NCBI GenBank assembly: GCA_014156375.1
Contig: RQJH01000005.1
Coordinates: 434,001-498,000 of the forward strand
From: Enterobacteriaceae bacterium 89
GTDB lineage: Bacteria; Pseudomonadota; Gammaproteobacteria; Enterobacterales; Enterobacteriaceae
Length of the DNA stretch: 64,000 bases
Reading direction: 5' to 3'
Part shown: positions 863 through 17,435 of the stretch, one piece after another
Position numbering within the stretch: the stretch's first letter is position 1
Layout: every line of letters starts with the position of its first letter
Program-made: the position numbers and the translations under genes
Notes under the pieces: model-generated
Seen by the model: the letters and a program-made list of their open reading frames with translations, nothing else
Database searches by the model: none
What the model was told of the DNA's origin: nothing

Positions 863-1465
863 CTATAGCTTTAGCTTCCAAAAATTCATGCCATCAATTA
901 GCCAATATTGCTCTCTATCGGGAACAAGCAAGCCAAAGTCATCATTTGCTTGAGCTGCCCAATCAGCTGGAGCAAGTTCTTCATGATTAATTTCCCAATC
1001 GGTGTGGCGGTATATCTTTTTGGCAAAATTAATATAAAACATAGGGAGCCGCATCCTCAACTCGTCCCACTTACTTGAAACAGTTCCCAATGATATGGAA
1101 TGAAATTCCTCTATGTAATTGTAAAAGTCAAATAGCTCATCCTTAGTTTTACCAAAAGTAAAGAAATTTCGCATCATATCCGTTGAGAACACAGTAACAT
1201 TGTTTTTAACTAAATACTCATCAAAATTATGTTCTGTTAATACGGGGATGCCTTTCCTGAAAGTAGTAACGGCTTCTTCATACTGTGATTCTTTCATCCA
1301 TCCCTTCTGAATGTATTTTTTGTACTCTGAAGACACATCTATACAAAAATTAACTTTATCATCGAAAACGTAATAATGTTTTCCTTTAGCGACGAAAACA
1401 GCAATAGCCATGTCACCGTTGAATAGTGCATCGAGTAAGCGTTCTGTTTCATTTACCAAATTCAT
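863..1465 (-). CDS. cdiI: Probable CDI immunity protein (CdiI)
   Basis: This 200-residue acidic cytoplasmic protein, without signal peptide or membrane segment, lies directly after cdiA. Its ATG (1463-1465) falls inside the last codons of cdiA, so the genes overlap by 17 bases, and an AGAGGAG binding site lies within the cdiA end. That overlap and the visibly AT-rich composition are typical of immunity genes that travel with a CdiA C-terminal toxin. The protein is rich in aromatic residues, for example KHYYVFDDKVNF and ELFDFYNYIEEF. I do not recognise an immunity family, so the role rests on position: it should bind and neutralise the toxin at the CdiA C-terminus. The symbol is given by position only. 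Confidence 0.75.
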   Translation of the reverse strand: MNLVNETERLLDALFNGDMAIAVFVAKGKHYYVFDDKVNFCIDVSSEYKKYIQKGWMKESQYEEAVTTFRKGIPVLTEHNFDEYLVKNNVTVFSTDMMRNFFTFGKTKDELFDFYNYIEEFHSISLGTVSSKWDELRMRLPMFYINFAKKIYRHTDWEINHEELAPADWAAQANDDFGLLVPDREQYWLIDGMNFWKLKL

Positions 1466-4400
1466 TTGTGAACTCCTCTTTTGTCAATACTCGAGCCTTA
1501 GACGAATTTTGCTCAATAAGCCGATCCCATACTTTTGGTAACTCCAAAGACACGCTAGGCTCTCCTTTGTTAGGATCAACAATCTTAGGTGCATTTGGAT
1601 CTTTTGCAACCCCCGGAATTGGCCTCTGAGGAACTGCTGCATCCATGATCTGCTTGTGCAAAGCAGCATCAACTTCAAATACTACAACGGAACCATCTGC
1701 TCTTTTGTTAGTAAGATAGTATGCGGCATGATTTGGGCCATTTGTACTGACGCACAATTGTCCACTGCATCCCGAATTAATACTTACAGTACCATCTTCA
1801 TTAACACTGATTCTGTTCTGACTTGTTTTAGTACCGCTTCCTCCTCCTTCTACCCTAAAGTAAGTCTCTGTAGTTGATTTTGGCTTTTCTGAGACAGCGT
1901 CACTAACACCATTCTTGGATACCGAAGAATCAATCCCTTTCATCCCTGCAATAATGCTTACTATTGCATGTAGCTGCATTGCATCATCATAGGTTTTCGC
2001 CACTTCATCCCATGACTTTTTCTCTCCTTTCTGAGCACTCGCACCTACGAGAGCCGTTATCGCCGCGTCACGAGTGATGCTTCCTTCATCCAAGCCTCTC
2101 ATTATTGCTTCGGCATTAGCGTAATCAGCCGGGAAAATATCCTTGTAGGATAATCTGTATCCCGCCGCGCTGTCGCTGTAACCTTCCAACGCTTTTTGAG
2201 CTTTTACAATCAGCTGCCCACAGCCGGCGCTACTCTTATTCCCTTGTGTACAGACGTCCAGAATCTGCTGATCGCGGGCTTTGTCCGTTGCATTGATGTT
2301 GGCAAGTTCTTGCGTCAGTGTCTGACGTTCATCAGCCGTCAAGTCACCATGCTCGAGTTGATATTCAACCTGCATTTTACGTTCGGCTTCTTTGTGATCC
2401 AGATAGTTAAACCGCACTGAATCCAACGAAGTCGCCGCGCCCGACTGCGCACCGTTTGAGCCACCTATGACGCCGCCAATAGCACCACCACTAACTGCAG
2501 CAGCCCACTGGGTGATCGCCGCTTTTTCATTCGGGCCCAGCGTCGTATGGCTGTCCAGGTAGTTACTCACCAGTTGCCCGAAGGCTTCGCTGGTCATACC
2601 CGCCATGCCTCCAGCTAGCGCATTACCCCCTCCAAAACTTGCCTGAATGGCACCGATAATGCCGTGGATCGCGGCTTTTTCTTTGCTGTCTGCCGCCCAG
2701 CCCATGGCTGCGCCCAGGTCACCGGCATACTGGTTTGCCATCTGCCCAAAGAGGCCTGCCAGTTCCTGTTGCTCCTGAACTTTCTCTTTATCGAAAATTT
2801 TACCGATATGACCGTTGGCGTTATCCGTATCGCGGCTAAGTCCAGCGACATCCTGCTGCTGATTTTCTTTATCGCGGATAGTAATTGTGCCGCCAGCAAT
2901 CGCCGAATGCGTGGTACCTGATGCTTCACCCTCACTCCCCACACCAATAATTGGTACCGCGCCACCACCGTTATGGCGTTCGCCATCAGCGTCTTTTGAG
3001 GATGAAAATCCTCCGCTTATCCCACTGGTATCAGCGCTGTAATCAGCGCTGTTGTGGATGTCCCGCCAGCCAAGCGTTCCGGTATCAAGCGAGTTTTTGT
3101 CTGCCGTTGCCGTGCTGGCAATCACAGCCCCATCCAGCTGCGTGTGTTTGCCGACGGTGATATCAAAGCCTCTGTCACCTGCAAACAGGCCACTTTGCTC
3201 GCCGACACTGGCGTAATCACTGTCGGTTTTGCTCTTGCTGATACTCAGTGAGGCCGAGCCTGTCATCGAACCGAACGTGAAGCTGGCACCACCGCTGACG
3301 TCTTTCTGCCAGCTGTGATATTCATCGGTGTCCTGCAAGCTTGTGACCAGCAGATCGCGCCCCACATCGGCAGTAATTTTGTCGCCCAGTGCCTGCGCAC
3401 CTGCGATGACCGTGTCACGTCCGCTGCTGAGGCTCAGTTCATCGCGAGCGTTTATGCGCGAGTTGACATACTCAACAGATTTTCCATTGTCACCGCCTTT
3501 CGACTGATAGCCGCTGGCCTGAACGCCAATCCCCGTTTCTTGTCCGATGGAGACATGCACACCCGCACTCCAGCCGCTGCTGTTGTTCGAGCTTTTTTGC
3601 TCCTGATTGTTTGAAGCCGCATTGAGCAGCAGGTCATTTTGTGCCACCAGTGTGACGTTGTTCCCTGTGACTCCGCTGCCTGTAACCTTCAAATCACCGC
3701 TGGTACCATTCAGCCCGGTGGCGACCATATTGATGTCGCCCCCGGCGGTCAGCGTGCTCCCACGAACTTCATTTTGCTTCAACTCAGAGGTGGAAGTGCT
3801 TTTGCTGGAGCCTACGTTGAGCTCCACCCGCACCGCGTTAACGCCATTCTGCATGGCTCCGCCAACTGCTGAGGCTGCACCCGATCCTGCAACCCAGGCA
3901 TCCTGCGCGGCTTTAACGCTGTAAAGTGCCTTCAGACGATCGTCACTGACTTCACCGCTACGTTTGTAAGCGTCATTCGCAGCCAGCGCCGCATCAGTAA
4001 TGGAAGAAGATACCGAAAGCGTCAGACCGCTTTTCTTCTGCTCATAGGTCTCTTTGCGGCGCAGCAAATCGTTACCCGGATCGACGGTAATTTCCCCGGC
4101 AGCCACATTCAAATTTTTAGCAGCAATCACATCCGCACCGCTGATATGAGCTTTATTGTCGGCGAGAATGCTGACGTTTCCGCCTGTAGATCCGACGGTA
4201 CTCACACTCTGGCTCTGAGTTGTACCATCTTCGTTAATCTGGTGTCGGGATGCGCTGGTTCCGATAGTAAAACCGATGCCACCTGAACCCATCAGGCCGC
4301 TGGTTTTCTTTTCCTTCAGATGGTACGAAGACTGTTCATCGGTTGCGGCTACGATGTTTACATCGTGACCTGCTTTCAGCGTGACATCACTTTCACCAAT

Positions 4401-7400
4401 GACGGATGAACCCTTCACCGTCACATCATTGCCCGCCGAAACGGTGACATTCTCACCGCTCAGCGAAGTGCCTTTTTCGTAAGTCGAACTTTCTTCATCA
4501 ATAGTGTGCGTGGTCGTTTTCTTGAGGAAACCTTTTTTAGTTTTCTTTTCCTCTTTGTATGAATAATCGCTTTCTGTCGCTGTAGTGATATTCACATCTC
4601 GCCCGGCAGCCAAGCCGAGATCACCTTGCGCGGTCACCTGAGTGGCTTCGGCGGTTACGTCCCGTCCGGCGTTGATCTTTGTGTCGCCGCCGCTGGCAAT
4701 TTCAGTGCCCTGTTGGCGCACGGACTCGTTGATAGTGGATTTGTTTTTCGAGCGTGAGCTGTTGCCTTCGGTCGTCGCTTCCGCCAGCAGGTTTACATCA
4801 CGCCCGGCCTGCATTCCGACGTTGTTTTCAGCGACGATACCTGCCGCCTGGCTGGTGATATCGCGGCCCGCGACCAGAGTCACGTTGTCGCCTGCGGTGA
4901 CGGTGGTGCGATCTGCACTGCTGCTGTGGCTTTCACTGCTGCCTTTGCGGCTGCTCTGGCTGTTGCCTGCGGCGTTGAGGTTCAGGTCGTTGCCTGCCAC
5001 CAGCTGTGCGGTTTTGCCTGCGTCAATCTGGCTGGCCGTGACGGTCAGATCGTTTCCGGCCTGCATGACGGTGTTGCCGCCAGAGGTGATCGTGCTGCCC
5101 TGATTGCTGGTGGCCGACGAACTGCTGTCTTTCTGCCACCAGAAGCCAGACTGGCTGCGGCTTTCATTCATCTGATTGGCGGCAATATTAAGGTTATTGC
5201 CTGCGTCCATCGCCAGATCGCCACCCGCGCTGACTTTGGCACCGGTGATGTTGATGTCGTTTGCGGCTGACATAAACAGGCCATCAGTGGCGGTAATCGA
5301 CGCGATTTGTCCAACATCGGTTCCGCTGATGGAGACATTGCCCTGACGAGTTCGGCTATTCACCGCCCAGTCCTCTGTCTGGGTAATGTTATTGATGCTG
5401 CCGCCAACGCTCTCCAGCTGTACGGTTTTGCCGCTGATGTTGGAGCCGATGTTGTTGATATCGCCTAACGCGCTCAGGTTCAGCCCGCCGCCTGCGCTGA
5501 TAAGCCCGGCGTTGAGGTTGCTGATGCTGTTGCTGCTGTCGATACTCAGGCCGTTCTGCGCAATAACGGAGCTGCCATCGTTGGTGAATGTTCCGCCCGC
5601 CAACTGGACGCTACCGCCGTTAATCACGCTGCCGTTCTGGACGCTGACGTCTTTGGGTGACAGATACACTTTCGGCACCATCACGGTCTGGCCGTTAATG
5701 GTTGAGGCTTCCCACCACAGAATGCTGTGATCCAGCGCGGCGATCTGATCGGCGGTGAGCGCTACGCCAAACGTCAGTCCCAGTGCGGTTTGTGAAGCCG
5801 CTGCGTTGTCCATCAGATAGCGCATCTGATCCAGATCGGAGCCTAATCCGTTGATGTAACGTGATCCGGTCTGGTTCAGAACATAGTTACTGACGTATCG
5901 GGTATCAAACGCCGCATCGCCGAGGAAGCGGTAATCTTTATCCGGATTGAGATTGAGGCGATCGACCATGTACGACGAGCCAAGGAACTGGTTGGCGTCG
6001 GTGAATTTGCTGTTGGTTTCAATCGTTGGCTGGCCGGGCTTAAGGCCGAGCATGCTGTACAGATCGCCGAACAGATTCGGATCTAACTGCCCCAGACCAT
6101 CAAGCTTTGGATTGACGGTGATGAGGTAAGGGCTGTCCGGGTTGGTCGAAGGAACAAAATAGCCATTGTTGCCAGAGGGCAGGGGATAGTTGCCGTCCAT
6201 GCCGCCAGGCACAAGTGCGGTGCCATCGGCAATGGTTTGCCCTTTTGCCCCTGCATCTTTCCAGTCCGGATTGGTGAGACCGAGTGAACCTGCCTTCTCA
6301 AGCGCCTGTTGGGATTGCCCGCCGCTGATGCTTTGCGCCGAAGGCGTATTCAGATTAGGCGCGGTAATCGTGTTGCTGATGTGCCCGGAGTTGGCCGCGG
6401 TGTTGGTGTTGCTGATATTGCTGGCAAAATTGGCGTTTACGCTGCCGCCTGCCTGAATGACGGAGCGGAAGATTTCGCCTTCTTCCGTAGTGGTGTCCCG
6501 ACCTGTCAGTTTGAATGCCAGAGTGGTCGTTTTTGGCATCACAATCGAATAACTATTGTCGGGCTTAGGTACTCCGTTATTAGCGTGCGAAGCGAAGCCA
6601 TAGCGCTTTGAGTCGTATTGATAAACATACCACTCAGTTGAGGTCCCGTTTTGCCAGCTCTGATTATTAAGCGTATTTCCAGTCAGTGAAACATTGCCAT
6701 TAGCCAGAATGTTGCTGGCCTGGTTGTCGAGGGTGCCTGCATAAATAGCCAGATTGTTGCCGGAAGCAATCCGTGCGGCACCGCCCTGACTGGTAACATC
6801 GGTACGAGACTGGCTGGCAATAAATCTCTGCTCAGCCGTATCGGAATAGGCCGCATAGCTGAACTGGTTATAGTGGTTATAGTTGCATGCGCCATGGCCG
6901 TTACAGGAGCCTGATTGAGTTTCAATGACATTATTAATCATGCCGTAGCTGCCGTCAGGCAACAGGCTGATATCAACATTAATCGTGGCGTTGCCCATCC
7001 CTGCAATGATCTGGGTGCCGTTTATCTGCGTTGTCGTTGCCGTCAAACCATCACGCTGATTCAGCAGATGCCCGGTGTTGATGGACAGATCGCCTCGCTG
7101 CGTTTCGATTGAACCAGAAGTGTTAATCACCTCAGTGTTCGCCGCGCCGCTGGCATCTCTCTGCATTACGAGGTTATTACCCGCCAGCATATCGCCGTGC
7201 AGGTTCTGGATGCTGTTAGCGAACAGCGAAAGCGAGTTCCCGGCGTAGAGCAGGGTGGTGTTAATGATTGAGCCAGAGGCCGTCAGCAGCAGATTGCCTG
7301 CGGTGCCGGTAAAGCCATTCAGCGCAATGTTGTTGCGGCTGGTCAGGCTAACGTCGCCGCCCGCCTGCAGTGCGCCATTGGCATTCATGGTGATGCTGCT

Positions 7401-10400
7401 ACCGTTGAGCGTGGTCGTGCCGTAGCCCGCCGTCAGCTGTCCGCTGTTCACCAACTGGCCGGAGGCATTCAGAGTAATGCCGTTGCCCTGCAACGTACTG
7501 GCGTTGACGATGTCGCCCTGGCTGGTGATCGTCAGCTGTTTATTTGCTGCCACCACTCCTTGCGTGGTCCAGCTGCCAACCAGGTTCAGCGTCAGATTGC
7601 CCAGTGCCACCAACTGGCCTGCGCCGCTCAGATTGGTGGCCTGCAGGATCAAATCGCCGCCGCTGAACGTTTTGCCGTTCTGGTTGTTGAAGCTGTTGGC
7701 CTGAATACCCATACGGCTGTTGCCGAGCAGAGTCCCGCTGTTAGTCAGCGTCTGTGCGTTCAGATCCAGCACTGCGGCCTGAAGCGTACCGGAGTTAGTC
7801 AGACTGCTGCCTGTGAAGGTGGTTTGGTTGGCGGCCATCAGCGTGCCGCCGTTAGCCAGTTTCGCCGTGTTCAGCAGCAGGTTAGTGGCCTGCAGCCAGC
7901 CGTTGCCACTGTAGTCTGGCGTGGTCAGATTCAGATCGTCACCGGAGAGGATTTTGCCAGCATTGCGGGTCTGGGTGGCGGCGGTCAGCGTCGTTTTACC
8001 GTTGCCCTGCAGGGTGCCGTCATTGGTCAGCACTGGTGCGGTCACGTTGAGGTCTTGCTGGCTGAGGATGCTGCCGCTGGCCTGATTGCTCAGGGCATTC
8101 AGCAGCGCCAGCGTCAGAGCGCTGTCGCCCTGCACGCGTCCGCTGTTCGTCAGCGTGTTGGCATCCACCCGTGTGTCAGCGCCCTGCAGCTGACCTGTGT
8201 TAGTGATGTCCTGTGCTTTCAGCGCCAGCGAGCCGCCGGTCAGCAGTTTCCCCTGCTGTTGCAGGTTGCCGTTAAGCGTAAGAGAAAGGCCGTTAACTCC
8301 ACTGATTTCACCGCTGTTATTCAGCGAACTGCCGTTGAGCGTGACGCTGGCAGCGCTCACCAGCCCCTGATTGCTGAACGCCTTACCTGCGAGCCGGGCA
8401 TCGCCCAGCGAGGTGATTTTACTGCCCGTGGCGGCAGTTATATCGCCACTCAGCAGCAGCGCCAAATCGAGGGTACTCTGGATTGCACCGCTGTTAGTCA
8501 GGCTGGAACCTTGCAGACTGACGTTTTTGCCCTGCAGTTGCCCGCCGTTGGTGATATCCCCGGCATTCACTGACAGTGTCTCCTGCGTCAGCAAATCGCC
8601 GCTGTTGTTCAGCTTGCCGGTGGTGTTCAGCGTCAGTCCGCCAAGACCAATAGCTTGTCCACGGTTATCAATGCTGCCCTGACGCAGAGTCAGAGTATTG
8701 CCCTGCAGCGCGCCGTCGTTGAGCAGTTGATCACCCAGAAGTGAGGCGTCTCCAGCGGAGAGCACTTTACCGTGGTTGAACAGAGAGGAGGCGTTGAGCG
8801 TCAGATCGCCCTGGCTCAGCAGCTCGCCGCTATTGGTGAGAGAACGCTGAAGCGTGGCATTGAGATGGTCGGTACCCAGAACCGAAGCACTGTTTTCCCA
8901 GTCATTGCCTGTAATCGTGAGGCCGCTGCCCTGCAGAGTACCCGCGGTAGTCAGTGAACCGGCATCCAGCATCAGTTGGCCACCGCTTAGCAGGCGACCC
9001 GTTTGTTCCTGCGTGACATCATCAGCCTTTATGGAGAACGCATTTGCGCCCTGCATCAGGCCAGAGTTTCGCAGCGAATTACCATCAAACGTCAGGCTGC
9101 TGCTGATGATTTTGCCAGTATTTGTGGTAGTGACACCTTTCACTCCAATCCCGGCATCGCTGCCGATGGTGCCTCGGTTGGCAATCTCAGAGCCCGTCAG
9201 AAGCATTGCCCCACGGCTGTAAATCGTGCCGCCAGAATCATTGGTAAAGGCGTTGCCGTTGAGCGTCAGATGAGTGTTGCTTTGCAGAACCCCGCTGTTG
9301 TTCAGCTTGCCAACATCGAAAGAAAGTGAATCCCCAAGCCACTGGCCGCTGTTACTAAAGTTCTGTCCGTTCAGCGTAATGCCGCGCTTGCTCGCTACTA
9401 CGCCGTCATTGATTAGGTCTGGAATATTTAGCGTCAGGGCTGCGTCGCTGTACAGGGTGCCGTGCTGCAGGTTATTCAGCGCGTTGGCGTTGAGTGCCAG
9501 CAGAGAATCCCCTTGCAAGGTGCCGCTGTTATTAAGGGTTTTGGCACCGGCGTTGAGGGTGTTTGCCACCAGCGTACCGCTGTTGTTGATCGTCTGCGCA
9601 GAGACGTTCATCTGAGCTGAACTGCTTTTACCACTGTGGTTCAGTGCTTCGCTGGCGTTGATCGCGAGCTGATTTTTCGCTGCCTGGGTTCCGGCAAGTG
9701 TAGCCTGCCGTGCTTCGATACTGAGATCGTTTCCGCCCTGCAACCTGGCGTTTTCTGCGGTGGTAACCCGATCGCTTTTCAGCTTCAGATCGCGGGCCGC
9801 ACTAAGTTCACCTTCGACGGTTGCCGAAGTGGCGGTGACGGAAAGTGAATCGCCGCTGTGCGTCAGGGAACTGCTGCCGGAAGTCAGCGTGTTGGTGTTG
9901 ATAGTCAGGCCCTGGCCGCCCGCAATGGTGCCATTTTGCACAACGTCACCGGCGGCGAGCGTCAGCGTGCCATCGCTGAGCAGAGCGCCGCTATTGCTGA
10001 CAACGCCGCTTGCGGTGATGCTGGCGTTACCCTTCGCGCCGATGTTGCCCGTCTGACTAAGATCATGGGTATTCAGGCTGAGATCGCTGGCGCTGAGTAG
10101 CGAGCCGCTGTTGTTGAGCTGGGTGCTGTTCACCGTCAGAGCGTTGCTCTGCAGGTAACCGCTGTTGTTCAGCGTTGCCGCATTGAGCTTCGCGGCATTG
10201 CCAGCAAGCAGTTTGCCATTCTGGTTCAGCATGCCGGCATTGACCGACAGATCCTGGCCTGCCGTCATCTGTCCCAGGGTCGTCAGGGTGTCGCTGGCCG
10301 TCGCTGAAATATGGCGTGCGGCATTGGTGGAACTGCCAGCGTCCTGGGAAATATTTTTCGCGGCGAGCACGACGTCGCGACCCGCTGTCATGGTGGCTGC

Positions 10401-11447
10401 GGAATGAGAAAGCGTGCCGTTGGCATTGAGCTGGAGGTCGTTATCGCTGGTCAGAGAACCGTTGCTGACTGCCAGATCGCCCTGACTGTTCAGCGCAATG
10501 CTGCCGCTGGCTTTATGGTCACCGGTCAGAGCAATGCTCTGGCCTTTGGCCGTGATGCTGCCGCTGGCAAGGCTGTTGTGGACAGTCAGTTTACCGTTGG
10601 CATCAAGAGTGATATCACCCTGGCGGGCATTGAGATCGCCAAGGTTAACCCCGACGCCGTTCTCGCTGGAAACAAGGTGGATACGGTTGGCATACATCCC
10701 GCCCAACGCGCCGGTATCGACAGCAACAACCGGGGCGTCTCCTTCTCCCTGTTGCGCCTGCACGGTTCCGTCGCTGCCCACTCGGTTAGCTCCGGCAATC
10801 ACCTTCAAATCTTTGGCGTGGATCGCTGCGTTAATGGTGGTGGCACGGCTGATGATGGAAAGCGCATCGCTGTTGCTGGCATCCAGCCCCTGGCCTTCAA
10901 TAGTAATGCCGCCTTTTTTGACATCCAGCGCCTGTAAGTTGCCGTTGGCATCAAACACCGGTTTACCGGTGGTGAGCGTCGCCTGTGGGGTATTGATAAA
11001 TCCACAGCCGCTACAGGTAATGCCGTAAGGGTTGGCGACCATCACGTTGGCCGCTTTGCCCGCCACTTCTGTGTAACCCTGCAGCTGGGAGCGGTTACCG
11101 CCGATCACCTCATTGATGATCCCTTTCGCTTCTTTGCCTGCCTGCAGGTTAGGGTTGCTGGTGATCAACCCGCCGAGCTGAGTCTGGTTCAGCTTGCCGG
11201 TGGCATTGTTGAGGATCAGCCCCTCTTTGCCGACGTTGTAATCCTGATACTGGTTATGAGAAATGCCAGCGCCGTTTGGCGTGGCGATATTCACGACCGG
11301 CACGCCGTTTGCCGCCTGGTCAGCCGCCGTGTTTCCCGTTGGCGTCAGCGTAGCCGCGACCGCGGGTAACAGCGGCTGCCCCGCAATCAGGAAGCTAATC
11401 AGATAGCTGAGCAGGCGTGACGTTAAGCGAACGGGAGGCTGATTCAT
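1449..11447 (-). CDS. cdiA: CdiA-type contact-dependent inhibition exoprotein (filamentous haemagglutinin family)
   Basis: The protein has 3,332 residues. I start it at the ATG at 11445-11447, with AAGGAT just upstream, because this gives a proper signal peptide (cleavage near AVA-A, residue 31-32). A longer frame only runs back into cdiB. Domains in order: secretion (TPS) domain to about residue 270 with NPYGI at 139-143; first haemagglutinin repeat field, about 280-1450; non-repetitive, probably receptor-binding, centre, about 1500-1930; second repeat field, about 1950-2850; pretoxin region, about 2870-3010. The usual VENN boundary appears as SVRFNYL near residue 3010. A cytoplasm-entry segment follows, then a toxin tip from YFRVEGGG (about 3189) to the end. 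The tip may have an ADP-ribosyltransferase-like or nuclease fold, which I cannot decide. CdiB should export the protein to the cell surface for delivery into neighbouring cells. Confidence 0.92.
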   Translation of the reverse strand: MNQPPVRLTSRLLSYLISFLIAGQPLLPAVAATLTPTGNTAADQAANGVPVVNIATPNGAGISHNQYQDYNVGKEGLILNNATGKLNQTQLGGLITSNPNLQAGKEAKGIINEVIGGNRSQLQGYTEVAGKAANVMVANPYGITCSGCGFINTPQATLTTGKPVFDANGNLQALDVKKGGITIEGQGLDASNSDALSIISRATTINAAIHAKDLKVIAGANRVGSDGTVQAQQGEGDAPVVAVDTGALGGMYANRIHLVSSENGVGVNLGDLNARQGDITLDANGKLTVHNSLASGSITAKGQSIALTGDHKASGSIALNSQGDLAVSNGSLTSDNDLQLNANGTLSHSAATMTAGRDVVLAAKNISQDAGSSTNAARHISATASDTLTTLGQMTAGQDLSVNAGMLNQNGKLLAGNAAKLNAATLNNSGYLQSNALTVNSTQLNNSGSLLSASDLSLNTHDLSQTGNIGAKGNASITASGVVSNSGALLSDGTLTLAAGDVVQNGTIAGGQGLTINTNTLTSGSSSLTHSGDSLSVTATSATVEGELSAARDLKLKSDRVTTAENARLQGGNDLSIEARQATLAGTQAAKNQLAINASEALNHSGKSSSAQMNVSAQTINNSGTLVANTLNAGAKTLNNSGTLQGDSLLALNANALNNLQHGTLYSDAALTLNIPDLINDGVVASKRGITLNGQNFSNSGQWLGDSLSFDVGKLNNSGVLQSNTHLTLNGNAFTNDSGGTIYSRGAMLLTGSEIANRGTIGSDAGIGVKGVTTTNTGKIISSSLTFDGNSLRNSGLMQGANAFSIKADDVTQEQTGRLLSGGQLMLDAGSLTTAGTLQGSGLTITGNDWENSASVLGTDHLNATLQRSLTNSGELLSQGDLTLNASSLFNHGKVLSAGDASLLGDQLLNDGALQGNTLTLRQGSIDNRGQAIGLGGLTLNTTGKLNNSGDLLTQETLSVNAGDITNGGQLQGKNVSLQGSSLTNSGAIQSTLDLALLLSGDITAATGSKITSLGDARLAGKAFSNQGLVSAASVTLNGSSLNNSGEISGVNGLSLTLNGNLQQQGKLLTGGSLALKAQDITNTGQLQGADTRVDANTLTNSGRVQGDSALTLALLNALSNQASGSILSQQDLNVTAPVLTNDGTLQGNGKTTLTAATQTRNAGKILSGDDLNLTTPDYSGNGWLQATNLLLNTAKLANGGTLMAANQTTFTGSSLTNSGTLQAAVLDLNAQTLTNSGTLLGNSRMGIQANSFNNQNGKTFSGGDLILQATNLSGAGQLVALGNLTLNLVGSWTTQGVVAANKQLTITSQGDIVNASTLQGNGITLNASGQLVNSGQLTAGYGTTTLNGSSITMNANGALQAGGDVSLTSRNNIALNGFTGTAGNLLLTASGSIINTTLLYAGNSLSLFANSIQNLHGDMLAGNNLVMQRDASGAANTEVINTSGSIETQRGDLSINTGHLLNQRDGLTATTTQINGTQIIAGMGNATINVDISLLPDGSYGMINNVIETQSGSCNGHGACNYNHYNQFSYAAYSDTAEQRFIASQSRTDVTSQGGAARIASGNNLAIYAGTLDNQASNILANGNVSLTGNTLNNQSWQNGTSTEWYVYQYDSKRYGFASHANNGVPKPDNSYSIVMPKTTTLAFKLTGRDTTTEEGEIFRSVIQAGGSVNANFASNISNTNTAANSGHISNTITAPNLNTPSAQSISGGQSQQALEKAGSLGLTNPDWKDAGAKGQTIADGTALVPGGMDGNYPLPSGNNGYFVPSTNPDSPYLITVNPKLDGLGQLDPNLFGDLYSMLGLKPGQPTIETNSKFTDANQFLGSSYMVDRLNLNPDKDYRFLGDAAFDTRYVSNYVLNQTGSRYINGLGSDLDQMRYLMDNAAASQTALGLTFGVALTADQIAALDHSILWWEASTINGQTVMVPKVYLSPKDVSVQNGSVINGGSVQLAGGTFTNDGSSVIAQNGLSIDSSNSISNLNAGLISAGGGLNLSALGDINNIGSNISGKTVQLESVGGSINNITQTEDWAVNSRTRQGNVSISGTDVGQIASITATDGLFMSAANDINITGAKVSAGGDLAMDAGNNLNIAANQMNESRSQSGFWWQKDSSSSATSNQGSTITSGGNTVMQAGNDLTVTASQIDAGKTAQLVAGNDLNLNAAGNSQSSRKGSSESHSSSADRTTVTAGDNVTLVAGRDITSQAAGIVAENNVGMQAGRDVNLLAEATTEGNSSRSKNKSTINESVRQQGTEIASGGDTKINAGRDVTAEATQVTAQGDLGLAAGRDVNITTATESDYSYKEEKKTKKGFLKKTTTHTIDEESSTYEKGTSLSGENVTVSAGNDVTVKGSSVIGESDVTLKAGHDVNIVAATDEQSSYHLKEKKTSGLMGSGGIGFTIGTSASRHQINEDGTTQSQSVSTVGSTGGNVSILADNKAHISGADVIAAKNLNVAAGEITVDPGNDLLRRKETYEQKKSGLTLSVSSSITDAALAANDAYKRSGEVSDDRLKALYSVKAAQDAWVAGSGAASAVGGAMQNGVNAVRVELNVGSSKSTSTSELKQNEVRGSTLTAGGDINMVATGLNGTSGDLKVTGSGVTGNNVTLVAQNDLLLNAASNNQEQKSSNNSSGWSAGVHVSIGQETGIGVQASGYQSKGGDNGKSVEYVNSRINARDELSLSSGRDTVIAGAQALGDKITADVGRDLLVTSLQDTDEYHSWQKDVSGGASFTFGSMTGSASLSISKSKTDSDYASVGEQSGLFAGDRGFDITVGKHTQLDGAVIASTATADKNSLDTGTLGWRDIHNSADYSADTSGISGGFSSSKDADGERHNGGGAVPIIGVGSEGEASGTTHSAIAGGTITIRDKENQQQDVAGLSRDTDNANGHIGKIFDKEKVQEQQELAGLFGQMANQYAGDLGAAMGWAADSKEKAAIHGIIGAIQASFGGGNALAGGMAGMTSEAFGQLVSNYLDSHTTLGPNEKAAITQWAAAVSGGAIGGVIGGSNGAQSGAATSLDSVRFNYLDHKEAERKMQVEYQLEHGDLTADERQTLTQELANINATDKARDQQILDVCTQGNKSSAGCGQLIVKAQKALEGYSDSAAGYRLSYKDIFPADYANAEAIMRGLDEGSITRDAAITALVGASAQKGEKKSWDEVAKTYDDAMQLHAIVSIIAGMKGIDSSVSKNGVSDAVSEKPKSTTETYFRVEGGGSGTKTSQNRISVNEDGTVSINSGCSGQLCVSTNGPNHAAYYLTNKRADGSVVVFEVDAALHKQIMDAAVPQRPIPGVAKDPNAPKIVDPNKGEPSVSLELPKVWDRLIEQNSSKARVLTKEEFTNEFGK
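7150..10450 (-). repeat. FHA-1 repeat field inside cdiA
   Basis: The translated minus strand shows dozens of degenerate units of about 20 residues built on L-x-N-S-G-x-L-x-G or LTNSGTLQ-type phrases, which form the beta-helical shaft of the exoprotein. At DNA level the + strand repeats words related to ccgctgttattcag and ctgccctgcag. The repeats are imperfect and stay in frame. They explain the long open frames on the opposite strand here, which are not genes. Confidence 0.8.
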
Positions 11448-11458
11448 CTTTTTTATCC

Positions 11459-13147
11459 TTAAAAAGCGACGGCAACGCGGTAATAAACGGTGAGGTGATC
11501 CGGGCCGAGCCAGTCCGGATAAGCCAGCGGGACACCCACGGTCAGTGAGGTCGACACCCAGCGGTTCGCGGTACTCAATCCGGCAGCTGTTCCCCACAGC
11601 GTGCCGGCAGAGTACGAATCAAATTTGTCGGAGTGCAGCCAGCCGCCGTCCAGCGCCAGCAGACTGCTCACCTGGCCGATAACCGGCAGGGTGAAAAGCT
11701 GATAGTTGAGCTCGTTGCGCCAGTAGGCACCGTTGTCGCCGGAAATACTCTGTTCTTTAAAACCGCGAACGGAGCTTTCGCCGCCGATGGTCATGCGCTC
11801 GCTGCCGTACAGACGGTCCGGTGTCCACTGTCCGTAGACGCTGGCAAGCCACCACAAATCGTTAGCCACGGGGCGCTGATAGCTGGCGTTCAGGCTCCAT
11901 TTGCGGAACTGAGCTTTTGGCAGATCGCCGTTTTTGTTGCCATCCACTTCGGCATCAAACCACGGCATGCCGCGGCTGAACGTCGGATTAATCGTTGCCA
12001 CGCCGCCGAGGATTTTCTGGGTATGGTTCAGGCCAAACAGCAGGCTGGTGAGCTTACGACTGCTGCTTTGGAGCAGCACGTCATCGAGATAGTTGCGGTT
12101 GATTCGGTGGCTGAGGCCGAGTGAAACGCCCGTTTTAATATCGCCGTTGCGGAATAAAACATGGGAGAAGTTAAAGCGATGCGTTTCCGTGTCGCCGCTT
12201 GAGCGCCACAGCCAGCCGTTGTTATCGATAGTACTGAGGTAGTTGTTCCAGCTGTAGCTGTAGTCGAACAGGCTGTAGCCATAGGGGATACTGACCCCGG
12301 TGGCAAAGTTCTGTGCATCTTTCGAATTGGAGAAATCGCTGCTGCGCCCGCCGCTAACAAACCAGTTATCGGCAAGCCCAAGTAAATTTTTCCCCGTCAG
12401 CCCGCCATTAAGCTGCCCGACGCCGGTACTCTTTTGTCCGCTGTTATCAAAGCTGACGGATCCACTGATGGGGAATTCAGGTGTGGCCGTCAGATGAACG
12501 ATCGACCAGCCCTGTTTTTCACCGGGCAGGATCTCAATCTGCACTGGCGTTGTTCTGGTGCGGTTAATCTGCTCCATACCCTGTTCAATATCGCGCAAAT
12601 TAATAATGCCGCCTTTCAGTCCTGGAAAAGTCATTTTTATTTCGCGCTCGGGCGCACCGTCCATGGCTATTTTTTCAAGACGACCTTCCAGCACTGCCAG
12701 GTGTAATTCTCCGGAGCGCAGATCCTGCTCGGTTAAAAAAGCCCGGCTGGTGATATAGCCACGACTGATATACCAGTCGGAAACGGCATTAGTCAGTTGA
12801 TTTATTCGCGATATATCGAGGCATTTATTTTGCCACGGAGCGATGAGCTTTTGCTGTGCCCGTGAGTCAATCAGCGTTGCGCCGTCCAGATAAATACTGT
12901 GGACGGTGAAACAGGGGCCGGTAACGGGTTCAGTATCAGCGGGTTGAGTGGCCCGTGGCAACGGCGTGGCGCGCTCCAGCGAGTCACGCTGCTGCTGGTT
13001 TTGCCGCAGCAGTTGTTGCTGTTGCTGCTCAATGCTGTCGCGATCGGCCGGTGAAAGAGGGGCGGCCCAAGCAGAAACTGTGGACAGGAGCGCAATAGTT
13101 AAAAGGGAAGCACTGACAAACCGCTGTTGTCCTGAAGTCCTTTTCAC
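11459..13147 (-). CDS. cdiB: CdiB outer-membrane transporter (two-partner secretion, FhaC/ShlB family)
   Basis: The 562-residue protein has a signal peptide ending SAWA-A, a Q-rich linker, two POTRA-type domains (about residues 75-220) and a C-terminal beta-barrel. The barrel carries the signature VRGF (in GGESSVRGFKEQ) and ends in Phe, as outer-membrane proteins usually do. It belongs to the Omp85/TpsB family and should recognise the TPS domain of CdiA in the periplasm and pass it through the outer membrane. The start is a GTG (13145-13147) with AAGG upstream. Its stop is 11 bases before the cdiA ATG, so the two are co-transcribed. The order cdiB-cdiA-cdiI is the E. coli type. Confidence 0.93.
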   Translation of the reverse strand: MKRTSGQQRFVSASLLTIALLSTVSAWAAPLSPADRDSIEQQQQQLLRQNQQQRDSLERATPLPRATQPADTEPVTGPCFTVHSIYLDGATLIDSRAQQKLIAPWQNKCLDISRINQLTNAVSDWYISRGYITSRAFLTEQDLRSGELHLAVLEGRLEKIAMDGAPEREIKMTFPGLKGGIINLRDIEQGMEQINRTRTTPVQIEILPGEKQGWSIVHLTATPEFPISGSVSFDNSGQKSTGVGQLNGGLTGKNLLGLADNWFVSGGRSSDFSNSKDAQNFATGVSIPYGYSLFDYSYSWNNYLSTIDNNGWLWRSSGDTETHRFNFSHVLFRNGDIKTGVSLGLSHRINRNYLDDVLLQSSSRKLTSLLFGLNHTQKILGGVATINPTFSRGMPWFDAEVDGNKNGDLPKAQFRKWSLNASYQRPVANDLWWLASVYGQWTPDRLYGSERMTIGGESSVRGFKEQSISGDNGAYWRNELNYQLFTLPVIGQVSSLLALDGGWLHSDKFDSYSAGTLWGTAAGLSTANRWVSTSLTVGVPLAYPDWLGPDHLTVYYRVAVAF

Positions 13148-13425
13148 CGGGTGACCTTAAGCTAAATAGAGCAGGAATAAGAGTTATCTTAAAACAAAAG
13201 TTAATTTGTGTAAATCTCATTAATATTTGTGTGATTATGTAACGTTATGGGGTGGGATATCTCTTATAAAAATTTAATTTAGGATTTTTCCTAGCCAGAA
13301 TGATGAGTGATTTTATTTAATCACTCACAGTTATTGTCGGGGAAATAAGTGTGGCGCGGCTTAACTGTTTATCTTAAATAAGCAGTTAAGACTGGGTTGA
13401 ATGCCGTGACAGCGTAATCATCGCT
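13148..13425. promoter_or_regulatory. Upstream region of cdiB with two inverted repeats
   Basis: This 278-base AT-rich gap separates the end of the ECF operon from cdiB, both on the minus strand. It should hold the cdiBAI promoter and the end of the sigma-factor transcript. Two inverted repeats stand out: TGAGTGATT/AATCACTCA (13304-13312 and 13319-13327, loop 6) and CTTAACTG/CAGTTAAG (13360-13367 and 13383-13390). Neither is followed by a strong T-run on the minus strand, so they are weak terminators or protein-binding sites. I could not fix a promoter with confidence. Confidence 0.45.
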
Positions 13426-14061
13426 TCAACGGCTGGCGACGTTGACCCAGCGCCAGCCCAGGCCCATGGTCGTACAGACGATGGTGACGATTGCCGCAAG
13501 GTGCATCAGAAAATCTTCCGGATGGACGTGCACCGGATGGCAAAAATAAAGCAGGGTCAGTGCCATGCAGGCCACGCCCGTGCCTGACAGCGCGAGGCTG
13601 CGCAGCGGGGTTAAGGTGCGGGTCCGCCGCAGATAGGCCAGAACGAGGGCGATCATCGGGACACTCACGGTCAGCATAAAGGTGTAGCAGTGGGTGTCGT
13701 GCAGATCGCTGATGACAAGAGGATGCTGGCTCAGACTCATTCCTGCCGATGAAAACCAGAGCGCAATCAACAGCATCAGCCAGCGCAGGCGCGGTGTACG
13801 ACGGCCCGCAATGCTGCCGTTAAAAGCAGAAGCGATTGCCAGCAGGCCGATCACAAAGACCAGTATCAGCTGCGCCACTGCCCATCCAGCCCCTGGCTGC
13901 GACCAGTCGGTGGCAGTGCGGACCAGCAGCAGGCTCATCAGAATGCCTGCTGGCAGAGCCATCAACAGCCAGCTGGTCACCCGAAGCCCTACGGGCGGCA
14001 CCCGTTTTACCGGCGTGGCCGTCTGGCTTAGTTTGGCAATTAACGCATCATGACTGGCCAT
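13426..14061 (-). CDS. NrsF-like (DUF1109) membrane anti-sigma factor
   Basis: The 211-residue protein has about six membrane segments after a short cytoplasmic N-terminus that begins SHDALIAKLSQTATPVKRVPP, the usual start of DUF1109 proteins, so it is read as the anti-sigma factor that holds the adjacent ECF sigma inactive. The Caulobacter homologue NrsF works through conserved cysteines. Here Cys125 (HDTHCY) and Cys174 (YFCHPVHVH) sit in histidine-rich loops, with two more at 165 and 196. The ATG overlaps the end of the sigma gene by 14 bases, which suggests translational coupling. It is the last gene of the operon. Confidence 0.85.
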   Translation of the reverse strand: MASHDALIAKLSQTATPVKRVPPVGLRVTSWLLMALPAGILMSLLLVRTATDWSQPGAGWAVAQLILVFVIGLLAIASAFNGSIAGRRTPRLRWLMLLIALWFSSAGMSLSQHPLVISDLHDTHCYTFMLTVSVPMIALVLAYLRRTRTLTPLRSLALSGTGVACMALTLLYFCHPVHVHPEDFLMHLAAIVTIVCTTMGLGWRWVNVASR

Positions 14062-14617
14062 GATTGGCTCCGTAACGACGAAGATTGTTCAGCGCCCGGT
14101 GCAGCAGCGATTTGACCGCCGCCACGCTCAGGTTGTGCTCTTTTGCGGCCTGCATCAGGCTCATCTCCTGCAGATGAATATTTTCCACAATCTGGCGCTG
14201 CCTCGCGGGAAGCTGATTCAGAAAGCCGTACAGTTCTTCGCGAGACTCCTGATGTTCTGTATTCCGCGCGGGGCTCAGGTCGGCAACGTTTTCTACCCAT
14301 TCTTCTTCAACGACCTCGCGGCGGGAGAAGCGTCCCTGGCGGCGCAGGGCATCAATGGTTCTTGCTTTGGTGATAGCCATCAGCCACGGCAGAAAAGGGC
14401 TGGCGGGATCGTAGGTGTGACGAACCCGGTGCAGGGTTAGCAGCACATCCTGAATCACATCCTCAATCAGCACTTCATCGTCCATTTGTTTGCGGACAAT
14501 GGCCCGGATCACCGGGACCAGAGTATGCAGCAAACTGGCGTAAGCCTGTCTGTCGCCCGCCTGGGTTCGTACCATGTACTCAGGCCATTGTTCGCGCGGG
14601 ACTTCTGCTTCACCCAT
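14048..14617 (-). CDS. ECF-family RNA polymerase sigma factor
   Basis: The 189-residue protein has the two-domain layout of ECF sigma factors. Region 2 is seen as EDVIQDVLLTLHRVRHTYDP followed by PFLPWLMAITKARTIDALRR. Region 4 carries the helix-turn-helix in LPARQRQIVENIHLQEMSL and AVKSLLHRALNNLRR. It lies 21 bases after the DsbD-like gene and overlaps the DUF1109 gene, the pairing known for SigF/NrsF of Caulobacter. It should direct transcription of its own operon and possibly distant genes when the membrane anti-sigma releases it. A matching promoter element is seen upstream of the first gene of the operon. Confidence 0.92.
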   Translation of the reverse strand: MGEAEVPREQWPEYMVRTQAGDRQAYASLLHTLVPVIRAIVRKQMDDEVLIEDVIQDVLLTLHRVRHTYDPASPFLPWLMAITKARTIDALRRQGRFSRREVVEEEWVENVADLSPARNTEHQESREELYGFLNQLPARQRQIVENIHLQEMSLMQAAKEHNLSVAAVKSLLHRALNNLRRYGANHGQS

Positions 14618-14638
14618 ATGCCGCCTTGTTGTGGCGCG

Positions 14639-15859
14639 TTACGCCTTTTTGCCCGCTGCCTTGTCGAGCGCATTCACCACGATATCCGGAGTTAATACCT
14701 GAGGCAGGATTGTCGGCGCACCGCCGTCGGCAGGATAAACCACATACAGCGGCAGTCCACCCTGACCAAACTGGCTCAGCGCATCATCAACGTCAGCATT
14801 AAATTTAGTCGAATCTGCCACCATATAAAGCGTGCCGGTGCGGGCCAGCGCATCCTTAACCGCCTGAGTGGAGAGCGACGTCTTGTCGTTGACCTGACAG
14901 GTGATGCACCAGGAAGCGGTAAAGTTGACGAAGATGGCTTTGCCATGTCCCCGCTGCTGCTCTACGGCCTGCGGCGTCCATTTTTCTTGTGTCACCGTTT
15001 CTGCGGTCTGGGTGGTTGTCGGTTTCATCACTCCGGGGAGCGGGATCAACACCGCCAGAATCAATGCAGCGGTGACCAGATACATCACCCGGAAACCCCG
15101 CCCGGCCAGCTGACGCTGTTGTGCCATACCGTAAAGCCAGGCAGCAAAACTCAGCACGACCGAACCTGCCAGCAGCACGCCAAGCGCGGTGGTGCCAGCC
15201 TGCTGAGCCAGCACCCACACCAGCCAGCCATAGGCGCCAAACATCGGGAAGGCGAGGCCGCGTTTCAGCACGCTCATCCAGGCGCCAGGACGCGGTAAGC
15301 GGCGGGCGAGAGCCGGAAATAGCGAGATCAGCGTAAAGGGAGCGGCAAAACCTAAAGCCAGCGCGAAGAAAATGGCCAGTGAGACGGCGGGCGGCTGCAC
15401 CAGGGCGTAGCCGATGGCTCCGGCCATAAACGGCGCAGAGCAGGGCGTGGCGACGATAATCGCCAGCGCACCGGTCAGCGCCGAACGAACAAAGGCTCCG
15501 CGCCCAACCGAGATTTCCCCGGCGCGCTGTAATGAGAGCCCCACCTCAAACACCCCAAGCATATTCAGCGCTGCACCCAAAATCACCAGCGCCAGCAGTG
15601 AGATCACCAGCGGAGACTGAAGCTGAAAGCCCCAGCCCACGGCGTTACCGCCTGCTCTGGCAGCCAGCAGAATAGCGGCCAGCGCCATCATGGTGATCAC
15701 CACGCCAAGCAGGAAAGCCAGGCCTTCGCTGCGGGCGCTGTTGGTGTCGCCGTTATGGCGCATCAATCCGAACGCCTTTAATGAGACGACCGGAAAGACG
15801 CACGGCATGAAGTTGAGAATAATGCCGCCCACAAAGGCGGCGAACATGGCGGTTAACAT
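14639..15859 (-). CDS. DsbD-like membrane thiol reductase lacking the N-terminal alpha domain
   Basis: The 406-residue protein starts straight into the DsbD membrane domain. Its paired redox cysteines sit in NFMPCVFPV and ATPCSAPF, with about eight membrane segments to residue 275. It ends in a periplasmic thioredoxin domain with the active site ASWCITC. Classic DsbD and ScsB have an extra N-terminal periplasmic domain, which is absent: the peroxiredoxin stop is only 19 bases upstream, so there is no room for it. By family knowledge it carries electrons from cytoplasmic thioredoxin across the inner membrane. The natural acceptor here would be the peroxiredoxin encoded just before it. That pairing is inferred. 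Confidence 0.88.
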   Translation of the reverse strand: MLTAMFAAFVGGIILNFMPCVFPVVSLKAFGLMRHNGDTNSARSEGLAFLLGVVITMMALAAILLAARAGGNAVGWGFQLQSPLVISLLALVILGAALNMLGVFEVGLSLQRAGEISVGRGAFVRSALTGALAIIVATPCSAPFMAGAIGYALVQPPAVSLAIFFALALGFAAPFTLISLFPALARRLPRPGAWMSVLKRGLAFPMFGAYGWLVWVLAQQAGTTALGVLLAGSVVLSFAAWLYGMAQQRQLAGRGFRVMYLVTAALILAVLIPLPGVMKPTTTQTAETVTQEKWTPQAVEQQRGHGKAIFVNFTASWCITCQVNDKTSLSTQAVKDALARTGTLYMVADSTKFNADVDDALSQFGQGGLPLYVVYPADGGAPTILPQVLTPDIVVNALDKAAGKKA

Positions 15860-15878
15860 ACCTTTCCCCGCTGAGCGA

Positions 15879-16436
15879 TCAGGAGTGCGACTGGGCGTAC
15901 TGTTTCACCGCATCCATCGTTTTCTGGATATGGGCGTCCGGATTACGGTCGGTGTAGCTCAGCAGAATTTTGCCGTTTGGCGCAATCACAAACGAAGTGC
16001 GGTCCGACAGCGTTTTGCCGCCCATCTGCATCTGGGTCTGGTATTCCGCAGCCACTTTTGCGCCAGGATCGGCAGCAACGGCGAATTTATTACGGCACTC
16101 CAGCTGCGAGAATTTCCCGACCTGATCGGTATTGCCCGCGGTCACCCCAATCACCGTAGCGCCGAGCTTTTTAAAATCGTCTGTGGCTTCGGCAAAGTCA
16201 TGAGCTTCCAGCGTGCAGCCCTTGGTAAAGGCCGCCGGGAAGAAGTACAGCACTACAGGTCCTTTTTGCAGCGCCTGCTGGAGAGAGAAGGTCAGCGGTT
16301 TACCCGCCAGCGCACCCTCAAGCTTGAAATCTGGCGCGGTGGCACCGGTTGGCAGAGCGGCTGAGGCGGTGAACGTCATCAGGCTAAAAGCAGCAGCGGA
16401 AGCAAGCAAAGCTAAGCGATGTTTTACGGCAATCAT
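15879..16436 (-). CDS. Secreted peroxiredoxin (AhpC/TSA, BCP-like)
   Basis: The 185-residue protein has a signal peptide ending ASA-A (about residue 26), which places it in the periplasm, and a thioredoxin-fold peroxiredoxin domain. The peroxidatic Cys74 lies in FFPAAFTKGCTLEAHDF. BCP proteins often have a resolving cysteine five residues later, but here that place is His79. The only other cysteine is Cys114 in QLECRNKF, which could act as the resolving thiol. The protein should reduce peroxides outside the cytoplasm, recharged by the DsbD-like reductase downstream. It is the first gene of the operon with ECF sigma and anti-sigma, and the start has the spaced site TTGG only, so initiation may be modest. 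Confidence 0.87.
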   Translation of the reverse strand: MIAVKHRLALLASAAAFSLMTFTASAALPTGATAPDFKLEGALAGKPLTFSLQQALQKGPVVLYFFPAAFTKGCTLEAHDFAEATDDFKKLGATVIGVTAGNTDQVGKFSQLECRNKFAVAADPGAKVAAEYQTQMQMGGKTLSDRTSFVIAPNGKILLSYTDRNPDAHIQKTMDAVKQYAQSHS

Positions 16437-16478
16437 GGTTGGCTCCAGTGGTCTCTGTTTATGAGGCTTTAAACATAG

Positions 16479-16504
16479 TTCGCTGGAGGGAAGGGGAAAG
16501 TTTC
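16479..16504 (-). promoter_or_regulatory. Candidate ECF-sigma promoter of the redox operon
   Basis: On the minus strand GAAACT (16499-16504) and CGAA (16479-16482) are separated by exactly 16 bases, about 42 bases before the peroxiredoxin ATG. SigF-type promoters in Caulobacter have, as I recall, the form GTAACC-N16-CGAA, so spacing and -10 fit and the -35 is close. This would make the sigma factor drive its own operon. It is inferred from pattern only. Confidence 0.5.
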
Positions 16505-16509
16505 GCCGG

Positions 16510-16548
16510 AAGGAAAAAATAATAAAATTCGCCCGACGCTGCCGGGCG
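16510..16548 (-). terminator. Rho-independent terminator after the PdxI-like gene
   Basis: On the minus strand the stem CGCCCG/CGGGCG (16530-16548) is followed by a T-rich run (complement of 16510-16528). It lies 9 bases after the stop of the aldo/keto reductase gene and would separate that gene from the redox operon. Confidence 0.75.
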
Positions 16549-16556
16549 ATTCAGTA

Positions 16557-17435
16557 TTAATGCTTCGCAGCCTGCGGCATGTTGTTCAGAACATCAATGG
16601 CCTCTTGCGGCAGTTTCAGCGCTGCAGCAGCGAGGTTTTCCTGCAAATGACCCAGTGAGGAAGTGCCGGGGATCAACAGGATGTTCGGCGAACGCTGGAA
16701 CAGCCAGGCAAGCGCAACCTGCATTGGCGTGGCTTTCAGGCTGGCGGCGATGTCGTTGATTTCCTGAGACTGCAGCGGGGTGAAACCACCCAGCGGGAAG
16801 AACGGCACATAGGCGATGTTTTTTGCTGCCAGCTTGTCGATAAGCGCATCATCGTGGCGGTTAGCGACGTTATAGAAGTTCTGCACGCAGACGATATCCG
16901 TCATTTTCAGGCCGTCTTCCACCTGCTTTTCCGTGACGTTGCTGAGACCGATATGGCGAATCAGCCCGCGATCTTTAAGCTTAATCAGCGTCTCCAGCGG
17001 CGCTTCCAGCGAACCTTCCGCCGGGCCGTGCTGGCTAATCATGCTGCGCAGGTTGACCACGTCCAGCACGTCCAGTCCGAGGTTGCGCAGGTTGTCTTCT
17101 ACCGCTGAGGTCAGCTCTTCGGCAGACAGCGCCGGTAGCCAGTTGCCTGTCTCATCGCGGCGGGCGCTGACCTTGGTGACGATAGTCAGATCTTTCGGGT
17201 AAGGATGCAGCGCTTCTTTAATCAGTTTGTTGGTGACGTGTGGGCCGTAGAAATCAGAGGTATCGATGTGGTTAACCCCCGCTTCCAGCGCTGCGCGCAG
17301 CACTTTGACGGCCATTTCAGGATCTTTAGGTGGACCAAAAACACCAGGACCGGCCAACTGCATTGCGCCGTAACCGAGGCGGTAAACCTCGCAATCGCCG
17401 AGGGTAAAAGTGCCGGACTGTTTAACGCTGGACAT
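16557..17435 (-). CDS. pdxI: Aldo/keto reductase, PdxI (YdbC)-like pyridoxal reductase
   Basis: The 292-residue protein closely resembles E. coli YdbC, now called PdxI, which reduces pyridoxal to pyridoxine with NADPH in vitamin B6 salvage. Shared segments include RLGYGAMQLAGPGVFGPP near the start, the active-site stretch NHIDTSDFYGPH, TKVSARR, and the cofactor-binding stretch LLIPGTSSLGHL near the end. The length matches the family. It stands alone between yqeG and the redox operon, with its own terminator. In E. coli ydbC lies elsewhere, so this could be a moved orthologue or a second copy. The enzyme family is certain, the exact substrate less so. Confidence 0.82.
   Translation of the reverse strand: MSSVKQSGTFTLGDCEVYRLGYGAMQLAGPGVFGPPKDPEMAVKVLRAALEAGVNHIDTSDFYGPHVTNKLIKEALHPYPKDLTIVTKVSARRDETGNWLPALSAEELTSAVEDNLRNLGLDVLDVVNLRSMISQHGPAEGSLEAPLETLIKLKDRGLIRHIGLSNVTEKQVEDGLKMTDIVCVQNFYNVANRHDDALIDKLAAKNIAYVPFFPLGGFTPLQSQEINDIAASLKATPMQVALAWLFQRSPNILLIPGTSSLGHLQENLAAAALKLPQEAIDVLNNMPQAAKH

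Follow-up and report, generated by a model that had tools for sequence, protein, structure and literature searches.

A probable peroxiredoxin and thiol reductase operon with its own ECF sigma factor and NrsF-family anti-sigma factor in Enterobacteriaceae

The window analyzed in this work is a stretch of 64,000 nucleotides from Enterobacteriaceae bacterium 89 (contig RQJH01000005.1, positions 434,001 to 498,000 of the forward strand). Our subject is a unit of four minus-strand genes at 13426..16504 of the window, which encode, in transcription order, a peroxiredoxin (Prx; gene prx), a DsbD-like membrane thiol reductase (dsbD), an extracytoplasmic function (ECF) sigma factor (sigma) and an NrsF-family membrane anti-sigma factor (nrsF). 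That the unit is a self-contained operon with its own sigma factor is well supported by sequence comparison, and it is probably a single autoregulated operon whose products act in the periplasm to reduce oxidants, of which peroxides are the most likely. We read it as one self-regulated operon because the gene order is conserved, a promoter of the ECF16 type lies before prx, no such promoter is found just before the sigma gene, and none is found where the sigma factor and NrsF are missing. The peroxide function, the electron path and the inducer, as well as the release of the sigma factor and the substrate, are suggested by the protein families. Published systems are cited here from excerpts of the respective papers.

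Gene order and distribution

Protein families were assigned by Pfam and NCBIfam profile searches. The features of the unit are as follows.

15879..16436, minus strand: PrxQ/BCP-like peroxiredoxin, putatively secreted, 185 aa (Pfam AhpC-TSA/Redoxin)
14639..15859, minus strand: DsbD/ScsB-like membrane thiol reductase, 406 aa (Pfam DsbD_TM at 4-214 and Thioredoxin_7 at 293-377)
14048..14617, minus strand: ECF sigma factor, 189 aa (Sigma70_r2 and Sigma70_r4 only, plus an ECF model)
13426..14061, minus strand: NrsF/DUF1109 membrane anti-sigma factor, 211 aa (Pfam NrsF, below the gathering score)
16477..16505, minus strand: putative ECF16-type promoter CGAAACTTT-N14-CGAACT, upstream of prx
16529..16549, minus strand: terminator-like hairpin in the interval between an aldo/keto reductase gene and the operon promoter (9-pair stem, then ATTTTATTAT)

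The gaps are 19 bases between prx and dsbD and 21 bases between dsbD and the sigma gene, and the sigma and nrsF genes overlap by 14 bases. The first-pass annotation had described a tight four-gene minus-strand unit with these two gaps and one overlap, and its layout is reproduced here; the profile searches likewise agree with the identities that it gave (peroxiredoxin, thiol reductase, ECF sigma factor and DUF1109 anti-sigma factor).

A neighbourhood search for the four-gene set, which the first-pass annotation had asked for, found the order prx-dsbD-sigma-nrsF in 17 of the 18 loci of a first set and in 13/13 plasmid loci opened. The first set comprises the window, 15 genomes of the family, Enterobacter sp. 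CC120223-11 (the closest named relative found) and genome G147 from another family; G147 is the exception, with the sigma and nrsF genes alone. At L035 (genome G219, 49% complete) the four genes are present as frameshifted pieces, and this locus was excluded from the protein alignments and trees; the remaining four-gene loci of the first set are referred to below as the 16 aligned sets. Because the same order is found in two classes of bacteria, and the active-site cysteines do not vary in any of the 16 aligned sets, the arrangement reflects more than chance.

The window type of NrsF was found in 4/197 genomes of the order and 17/198 of the family. One family genome (G354) was dropped for its partial match of 89 residues with internal stops; the remaining 16 carriers all contain Prx. 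Wider searches gave NrsF matches in 4/321 genomes of the class and 14/349 of the phylum. At 13 NrsF loci outside the family (12 of these and G147), no relative of Prx or DsbD was found within about 6 kb on each side, or less at contig ends, and a sigma relative lies nearby in 11. A contig scan with the sigma protein gave one locus only, since a single-protein query picks up close relatives only.

Plasmid records with an NrsF match number 85, and Pantoea accounts for 70 of these. Three of the 13 plasmid loci opened are from Sphingomonadaceae (Novosphingobium resinovorum, N. humi and Sphingobium yanoikuyae), and the anti-sigma factor is already annotated as NrsF family or DUF1109 in 10 of the 13 records. 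Another of the 13 is on plasmid pPag3 of Pantoea vagans C9-1, a biocontrol strain. The gene set is in pieces at one of them, L103 (CP093281.1, Pseudomonas silvicola p1), which was excluded from the trees; its replicon type is that of Pantoea megaplasmids (rep_cluster_1232), and either the organism name or the assembly could be in error. At L101, the dsbD reading frame stops after 56 aa; the reductase tree includes this piece. None of the 20,395 E. coli records searched (described as including 5,426 complete genomes) gave a blastn match. The earlier remark that the set is not known from model enterobacteria thus holds for E. coli, the one model species covered.

Around the unit, terminator-like hairpins are not infrequent in shuffled sequences either (6 in the region versus a shuffle mean of 4.5), and a scan of 13100-16700 for promoters of the sigma-70 type gave one weak match, at 13186-13214. 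Directly downstream of nrsF, at 1449-13147 on the minus strand, lie open reading frames (ORFs) for a 3382-aa haemagglutinin-repeat exoprotein and a 562-aa two-partner secretion transporter, which we take to resemble an FHA/CDI-type system.

The promoter and its occurrence

The most conserved block 5' of prx is (C/G)G(A/C/T)AAC(C/T)TT-N14-CGAA(C/T), which is preceded by an A/T tract. In the window, 42 bases separate CGAA from the prx start codon. The motif agrees with the ECF16 consensus promoter tGTAACc-N16-CGAA (PMC3420878): the spacer between (C/G)HAAC and CGAA is 17 bases in 24/28 loci and 16 in the other 4/28, and exact GTAAC occurs in L022 and L023, most other loci having GAAAC or GCAAC.

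A looser motif, [CG]HAAC-N15-17-CGAA, was fixed before the plasmid loci were inspected at the DNA level. It is present before prx in 28 of the 30 loci with a cognate sigma factor, compared with 0/3 loci without the cognate sigma factor and NrsF (Fisher's exact p = 0.0018, with loci treated as independent). In particular, 12 of the 13 plasmid loci, which were not used to define the motif, have it within 260 bases before prx, the chance expectation being 0.027 per 290-base stretch. Both misses (L035 and L103) are loci whose genes are in pieces, and inspection of L035 by eye finds CGAAACTTT and AGAACT in place with the spacing one base short. Note that the prx start of L103 and L101 was taken as the start of the tblastn match. 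Within 200 bp before the sigma gene, the ECF16 motif was found in none of 17 loci, the sigma start of L035 being uncertain.

The strict pattern has a single perfect match in the bacterium's own 4.72 Mb genome, namely the operon promoter. With one mismatch there are five sites, which were set aside as all of them lie within ORFs. One of these, C1:413892-413920, is 50 bp before a 214-aa ORF; it was rejected because it lies inside the preceding ORF and its AAC core is broken. With up to two mismatches there are 141 sites versus 186 for a reversed control; this count is not above the control, and therefore no wider regulon is claimed. A strict-pattern scan of 15 of the 16 carrier genomes (G219 was left out) gave 24 perfect matches, 14 at the operon and 10 elsewhere, compared with 4 for the reversed pattern. 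The carrier without a strict match, G340, has a spacer one base shorter. All 10 off-operon matches fall within long reading frames, in antisense orientation in 9 cases. Those in L082 and L089 are followed by a same-strand ORF 116 and 54 bp on, respectively; in both cases a longer antisense ORF overlaps this ORF and covers the site. At this stringency, the sigma factor appears to have one convincing target, and weaker targets may exist.

Conserved features of the four proteins

The nearest NCBIfam model for the window Prx is PRK09437 (thioredoxin-dependent thiol peroxidase), with a score below the cut-off, and its best sequence matches in the PDB carry the names BCP or peroxiredoxin. The active site consists of the peroxidatic Cys74 in P67-x3-T71-x2-C74, a candidate resolving Cys114 and Arg146. 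P67, C74, C114 and R146 are invariant in 16/16 aligned sets; T71, present in the window copy, is variable. In the common PrxQ/BCP subtype, the resolving cysteine lies five residues past the peroxidatic one. The window Prx has no cysteine at that position (His79 is found there), and its second invariant cysteine, Cys114, is 40 residues on. A hydrophobic stretch at residues 8-26 (simple hydropathy) and an AxA-type site read by eye point to a putative signal peptide, and Prx is thus predicted to be secreted. A structure prediction of Prx from a two-row alignment reached a mean pLDDT of 47.8, and no fold search was based on it.

The reductase has Cys20 and Cys140 in its transmembrane DsbD domain and W317-C318-x-x-C321 in its C-terminal thioredoxin domain, and all four cysteines are invariant in 16/16 aligned sets. 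It therefore belongs to the DsbD/ScsB superfamily by its transmembrane cysteine pair and C-terminal thioredoxin CxxC. It is not a full DsbD or ScsB, because the N-terminal domain is absent: DsbD_N was not found by profile search, the protein begins at the first transmembrane helix, and it aligns to the DsbD model only from position 171 onward. A PDB sequence search with the reductase gave no match at E<=0.001. Only one reductase paralogue (33%) was found in the same genome, a 686-aa protein composed of DsbD_N, DsbD_TM and thioredoxin domains; longer DsbD-type proteins of this kind form a second tier of reductase matches across the 198 family genomes. The gene of the 686-aa protein and its DsbA-like and ResA/TlpA-like neighbours lie at about 1470-4973 of L071 (contig C5), an arrangement that we take to be scsBCD.

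The sigma factor has regions 2 and 4 only, as in ECF16, and its gene adjoins nrsF in the window, as in the relatives that were compared. The NrsF match spans positions 1-201 of the 204 profile positions, and 12 of 17 aligned relatives match the profile at E<=0.01 (best, 1.5e-12); a PDB sequence search with NrsF gave no match at E<=0.1. Anti-sigma factors of ECF16 systems have six transmembrane segments; in the window NrsF simple hydropathy predicts five, and a possible sixth, near residues 92-111, was seen by eye only. Cys125 and Cys174 are invariant in 16/16 aligned sets, and Cys125, Cys174-His175 and His187 are kept in 28/28 four-gene homologues. Judged by their spacing of about 50 residues and their position, rather than by an alignment with OsrA, Cys125 and Cys174 may correspond to the two conserved cysteines, C129 and C179, of OsrA from Bradyrhizobium (PMC3420878).

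We also compared ten NrsF relatives from two-gene loci. Cys125 is kept in 10/10; the Cys174 column holds a cysteine in 2, and 2 more have one two columns off. The two-gene NrsF proteins of L133, L135, L136 and L137 have Phe or Val at the Cys174 position, and one cysteine-pair sensing mode therefore cannot fit all NrsF proteins. In a tree of the 28 four-gene and 10 two-gene proteins, the four-gene copies form one branch (support 100/99), and several two-gene rows are long branches. L132, L140 and L141 were left out of this alignment and tree because of their weak NrsF matches.

Proposed mechanism, alternatives and known systems

In the proposed mechanism, NrsF in the inner membrane would keep the ECF sigma factor inactive at rest. 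An oxidant acting on the cysteines of NrsF, most likely Cys174, would free the sigma factor, which with RNA polymerase would act at the ECF16-type promoter before prx and raise the expression of all four genes. Prx would reduce peroxide at Cys74 and then form a disulfide with Cys114, and the reductase would carry electrons from cytoplasmic thioredoxin via Cys20/Cys140 to the periplasmic Cys318-Cys321 and so re-reduce Prx. When the oxidant was exhausted, NrsF would recapture the sigma factor. In this scheme, cysteine sensing is modelled on OsrA, and electron delivery on the ScsB-TlpA-PprX chain (PMC5403849) and on the role proposed for Bll1026/Bll1027 under EcfF (PMC3420878). Since the operon has no TlpA gene and the reductase has a fused thioredoxin domain, the arrangement suggests that electrons pass directly from the reductase to Prx; a ResA/TlpA-like protein encoded elsewhere in the genome could serve as a go-between. 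A self-contained operon and an electron path from thioredoxin to periplasmic peroxide had both been proposed in the first-pass annotation. The former is strengthened by the conserved order and the promoter placement, its transcriptional side being a prediction from DNA patterns. The latter fits the invariant cysteines and has a close published counterpart in the ScsB-TlpA-PprX chain, and as a path in this bacterium it is likewise predicted.

Several points weigh against this reading. The support is comparative, and both expression and biochemistry enter as predicted function. The 28/30 versus 0/3 promoter contrast takes no account of shared ancestry, and the window NrsF scores 22 bits, under the Pfam gathering score of 26.8. 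The second, longer DsbD-type protein might serve Prx instead, and the published ScsB-TlpA-PprX chain has a TlpA go-between, none being encoded in the window operon (PMC5403849). In Caulobacter, the SigF regulon was not induced by reactive oxygen species (ROS), and a response was still seen in mutants with a single Cys changed (PMC3511200). In addition, three of the 19 family genomes with this Prx have no cognate sigma factor or NrsF: G097 has Prx and the reductase, G375 has Prx and an interrupted reductase, and G273 has Prx alone. Prx can thus persist without its partners, and G375 has a different ECF sigma factor with an RskA-type anti-sigma factor (L144, 8102-9342) 2.4 kb downstream of prx and the interrupted reductase gene. 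G097 is placed by the reductase tree within the sigma-bearing Erwinia/Pantoea branch (support of the ten-row branch, 97/94), and secondary loss of the sigma factor is therefore the simpler reading for it. None of the three loci has the motif before prx. L143 has it within two mismatches with a spacer one base longer, and L145 has, by eye, two half-sites closer together; both sites may therefore be decayed remnants of the promoter. The G273 gene (L145, 4412-5996 in reverse-complement coordinates) lies where prx lies in the window, at a permease-aldo/keto reductase-prx site.

The same three genomes, together with dsbD-sigma gaps of up to 88 bp in some relatives, could be taken to mean that the locus is two adjoining units, a housekeeping prx-dsbD pair and a sigma-nrsF pair that controls other genes. 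We consider this very improbable, as the ECF16 motif is found before prx (28/30), not before the sigma gene (0/17) and not where the sigma factor and NrsF are absent, and no other good target was found in 15 carrier genomes, whose 10 extra perfect matches all lie inside long ORFs, 9 of them in antisense. A chance cluster without joint function is scarcely credible: the set is uncommon (16/198 family genomes), but its order and promoter are common to Enterobacterales and Sphingomonadaceae and the four-gene NrsF proteins form one branch, a conservation that already contradicts it.

The nature of the signal leaves more room. The inducers of NrsF relatives differ by species, being hydrogen peroxide (H2O2) and singlet oxygen, hypochlorous acid (HOCl), or Cr/Cd (PMC3420878, PMC8315932, PMC3511200), and peroxide is therefore only one candidate. 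Under the same operon structure and sigma control, the signal and the job might concern reactive chlorine or toxic metals, with the reductase chiefly repairing envelope thiols and Prx as an accessory; this is unlikely, although it deserves serious consideration. Brucella BcrS, with an NrsF-family anti-sigma factor, confers HOCl resistance (PMC8315932), Caulobacter SigF/NrsF is responsive to Cr and Cd, not ROS (PMC3511200), and a DUF1109 anti-sigma factor from chlorite dismutase neighbourhoods has been termed a sensor of reactive chlorine species (PMC9751292). A histidine follows Cys174 in all 28 four-gene NrsF proteins, though several two-gene relatives also have His there. However, the HOCl targets named in the cited excerpts (methionine sulfoxide reductase and a Met-rich peptide) are absent from the window operon, the sole dedicated enzyme in the operon is a peroxiredoxin, and H2O2 induces the member from Bradyrhizobium (PMC3420878). 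Still more doubtful is a closed redox loop, in which Prx would be the sensor and oxidize an NrsF cysteine, the reductase would recharge both Prx and NrsF, and the operon would be the sigma factor's sole target. If so, sigma activity would directly report on the redox state of the one output that it controls.

The preferred reading, one autoregulated periplasmic antioxidant operon, would make the unit a minimal portable envelope module: about 3 kb would hold the enzyme, its supply of electrons, a sensor and a transcription factor, with one target promoter as far as pattern searches reach. It presents a dedicated ECF16/NrsF system in Enterobacterales and a simple system in which to ask what NrsF senses, and the three Prx-bearing relatives without the cognate sigma factor and NrsF offer natural comparisons. 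In openly licensed literature, mostly titles and beginnings of abstracts, we found neither this four-gene arrangement under one promoter nor a study of ECF16/NrsF systems from Enterobacterales. The components, and the principle of regulation, are all known already.

The electron path resembles the Caulobacter ScsB-TlpA-PprX system, in which electrons from the cytoplasm reach a peroxiredoxin of the cell envelope via a DsbD-superfamily membrane protein, Prx and PprX being likened by description only; the window reductase differs from ScsB in having no N-terminal domain, and the review passage on PprX names no sigma factor (PMC5403849). Caulobacter SigF-NrsF and Brucella BcrS share the sigma/NrsF pair with conserved cysteines, but their regulons, as described in the excerpts, consist of YedY, DUF692, DUF2063 and DoxX or of BcrXQP (Met-rich protein and methionine sulfoxide reductase), not of Prx and DsbD (PMC3511200, PMC8315932). 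EcfF-OsrA of Bradyrhizobium japonicum (ECF16) is like the window system in its sigma factor and two-cysteine DUF1109 anti-sigma factor, its GTAAC...CG promoter, its autoregulation and its DsbD-like target. OsrA needs C179 to respond to H2O2, and C129 may serve to hold the sigma factor; among the regulon products are a DsbD-like membrane protein and a periplasmic thioredoxin with a membrane anchor (Bll1026/Bll1027), proposed as outward electron carriers (PMC3420878). According to the same excerpt, the EcfF targets are spread over several transcription units and methionine sulfoxide reductase is the proposed electron receiver, whereas in the window Prx and a fused reductase are placed within the sigma/anti-sigma operon itself.

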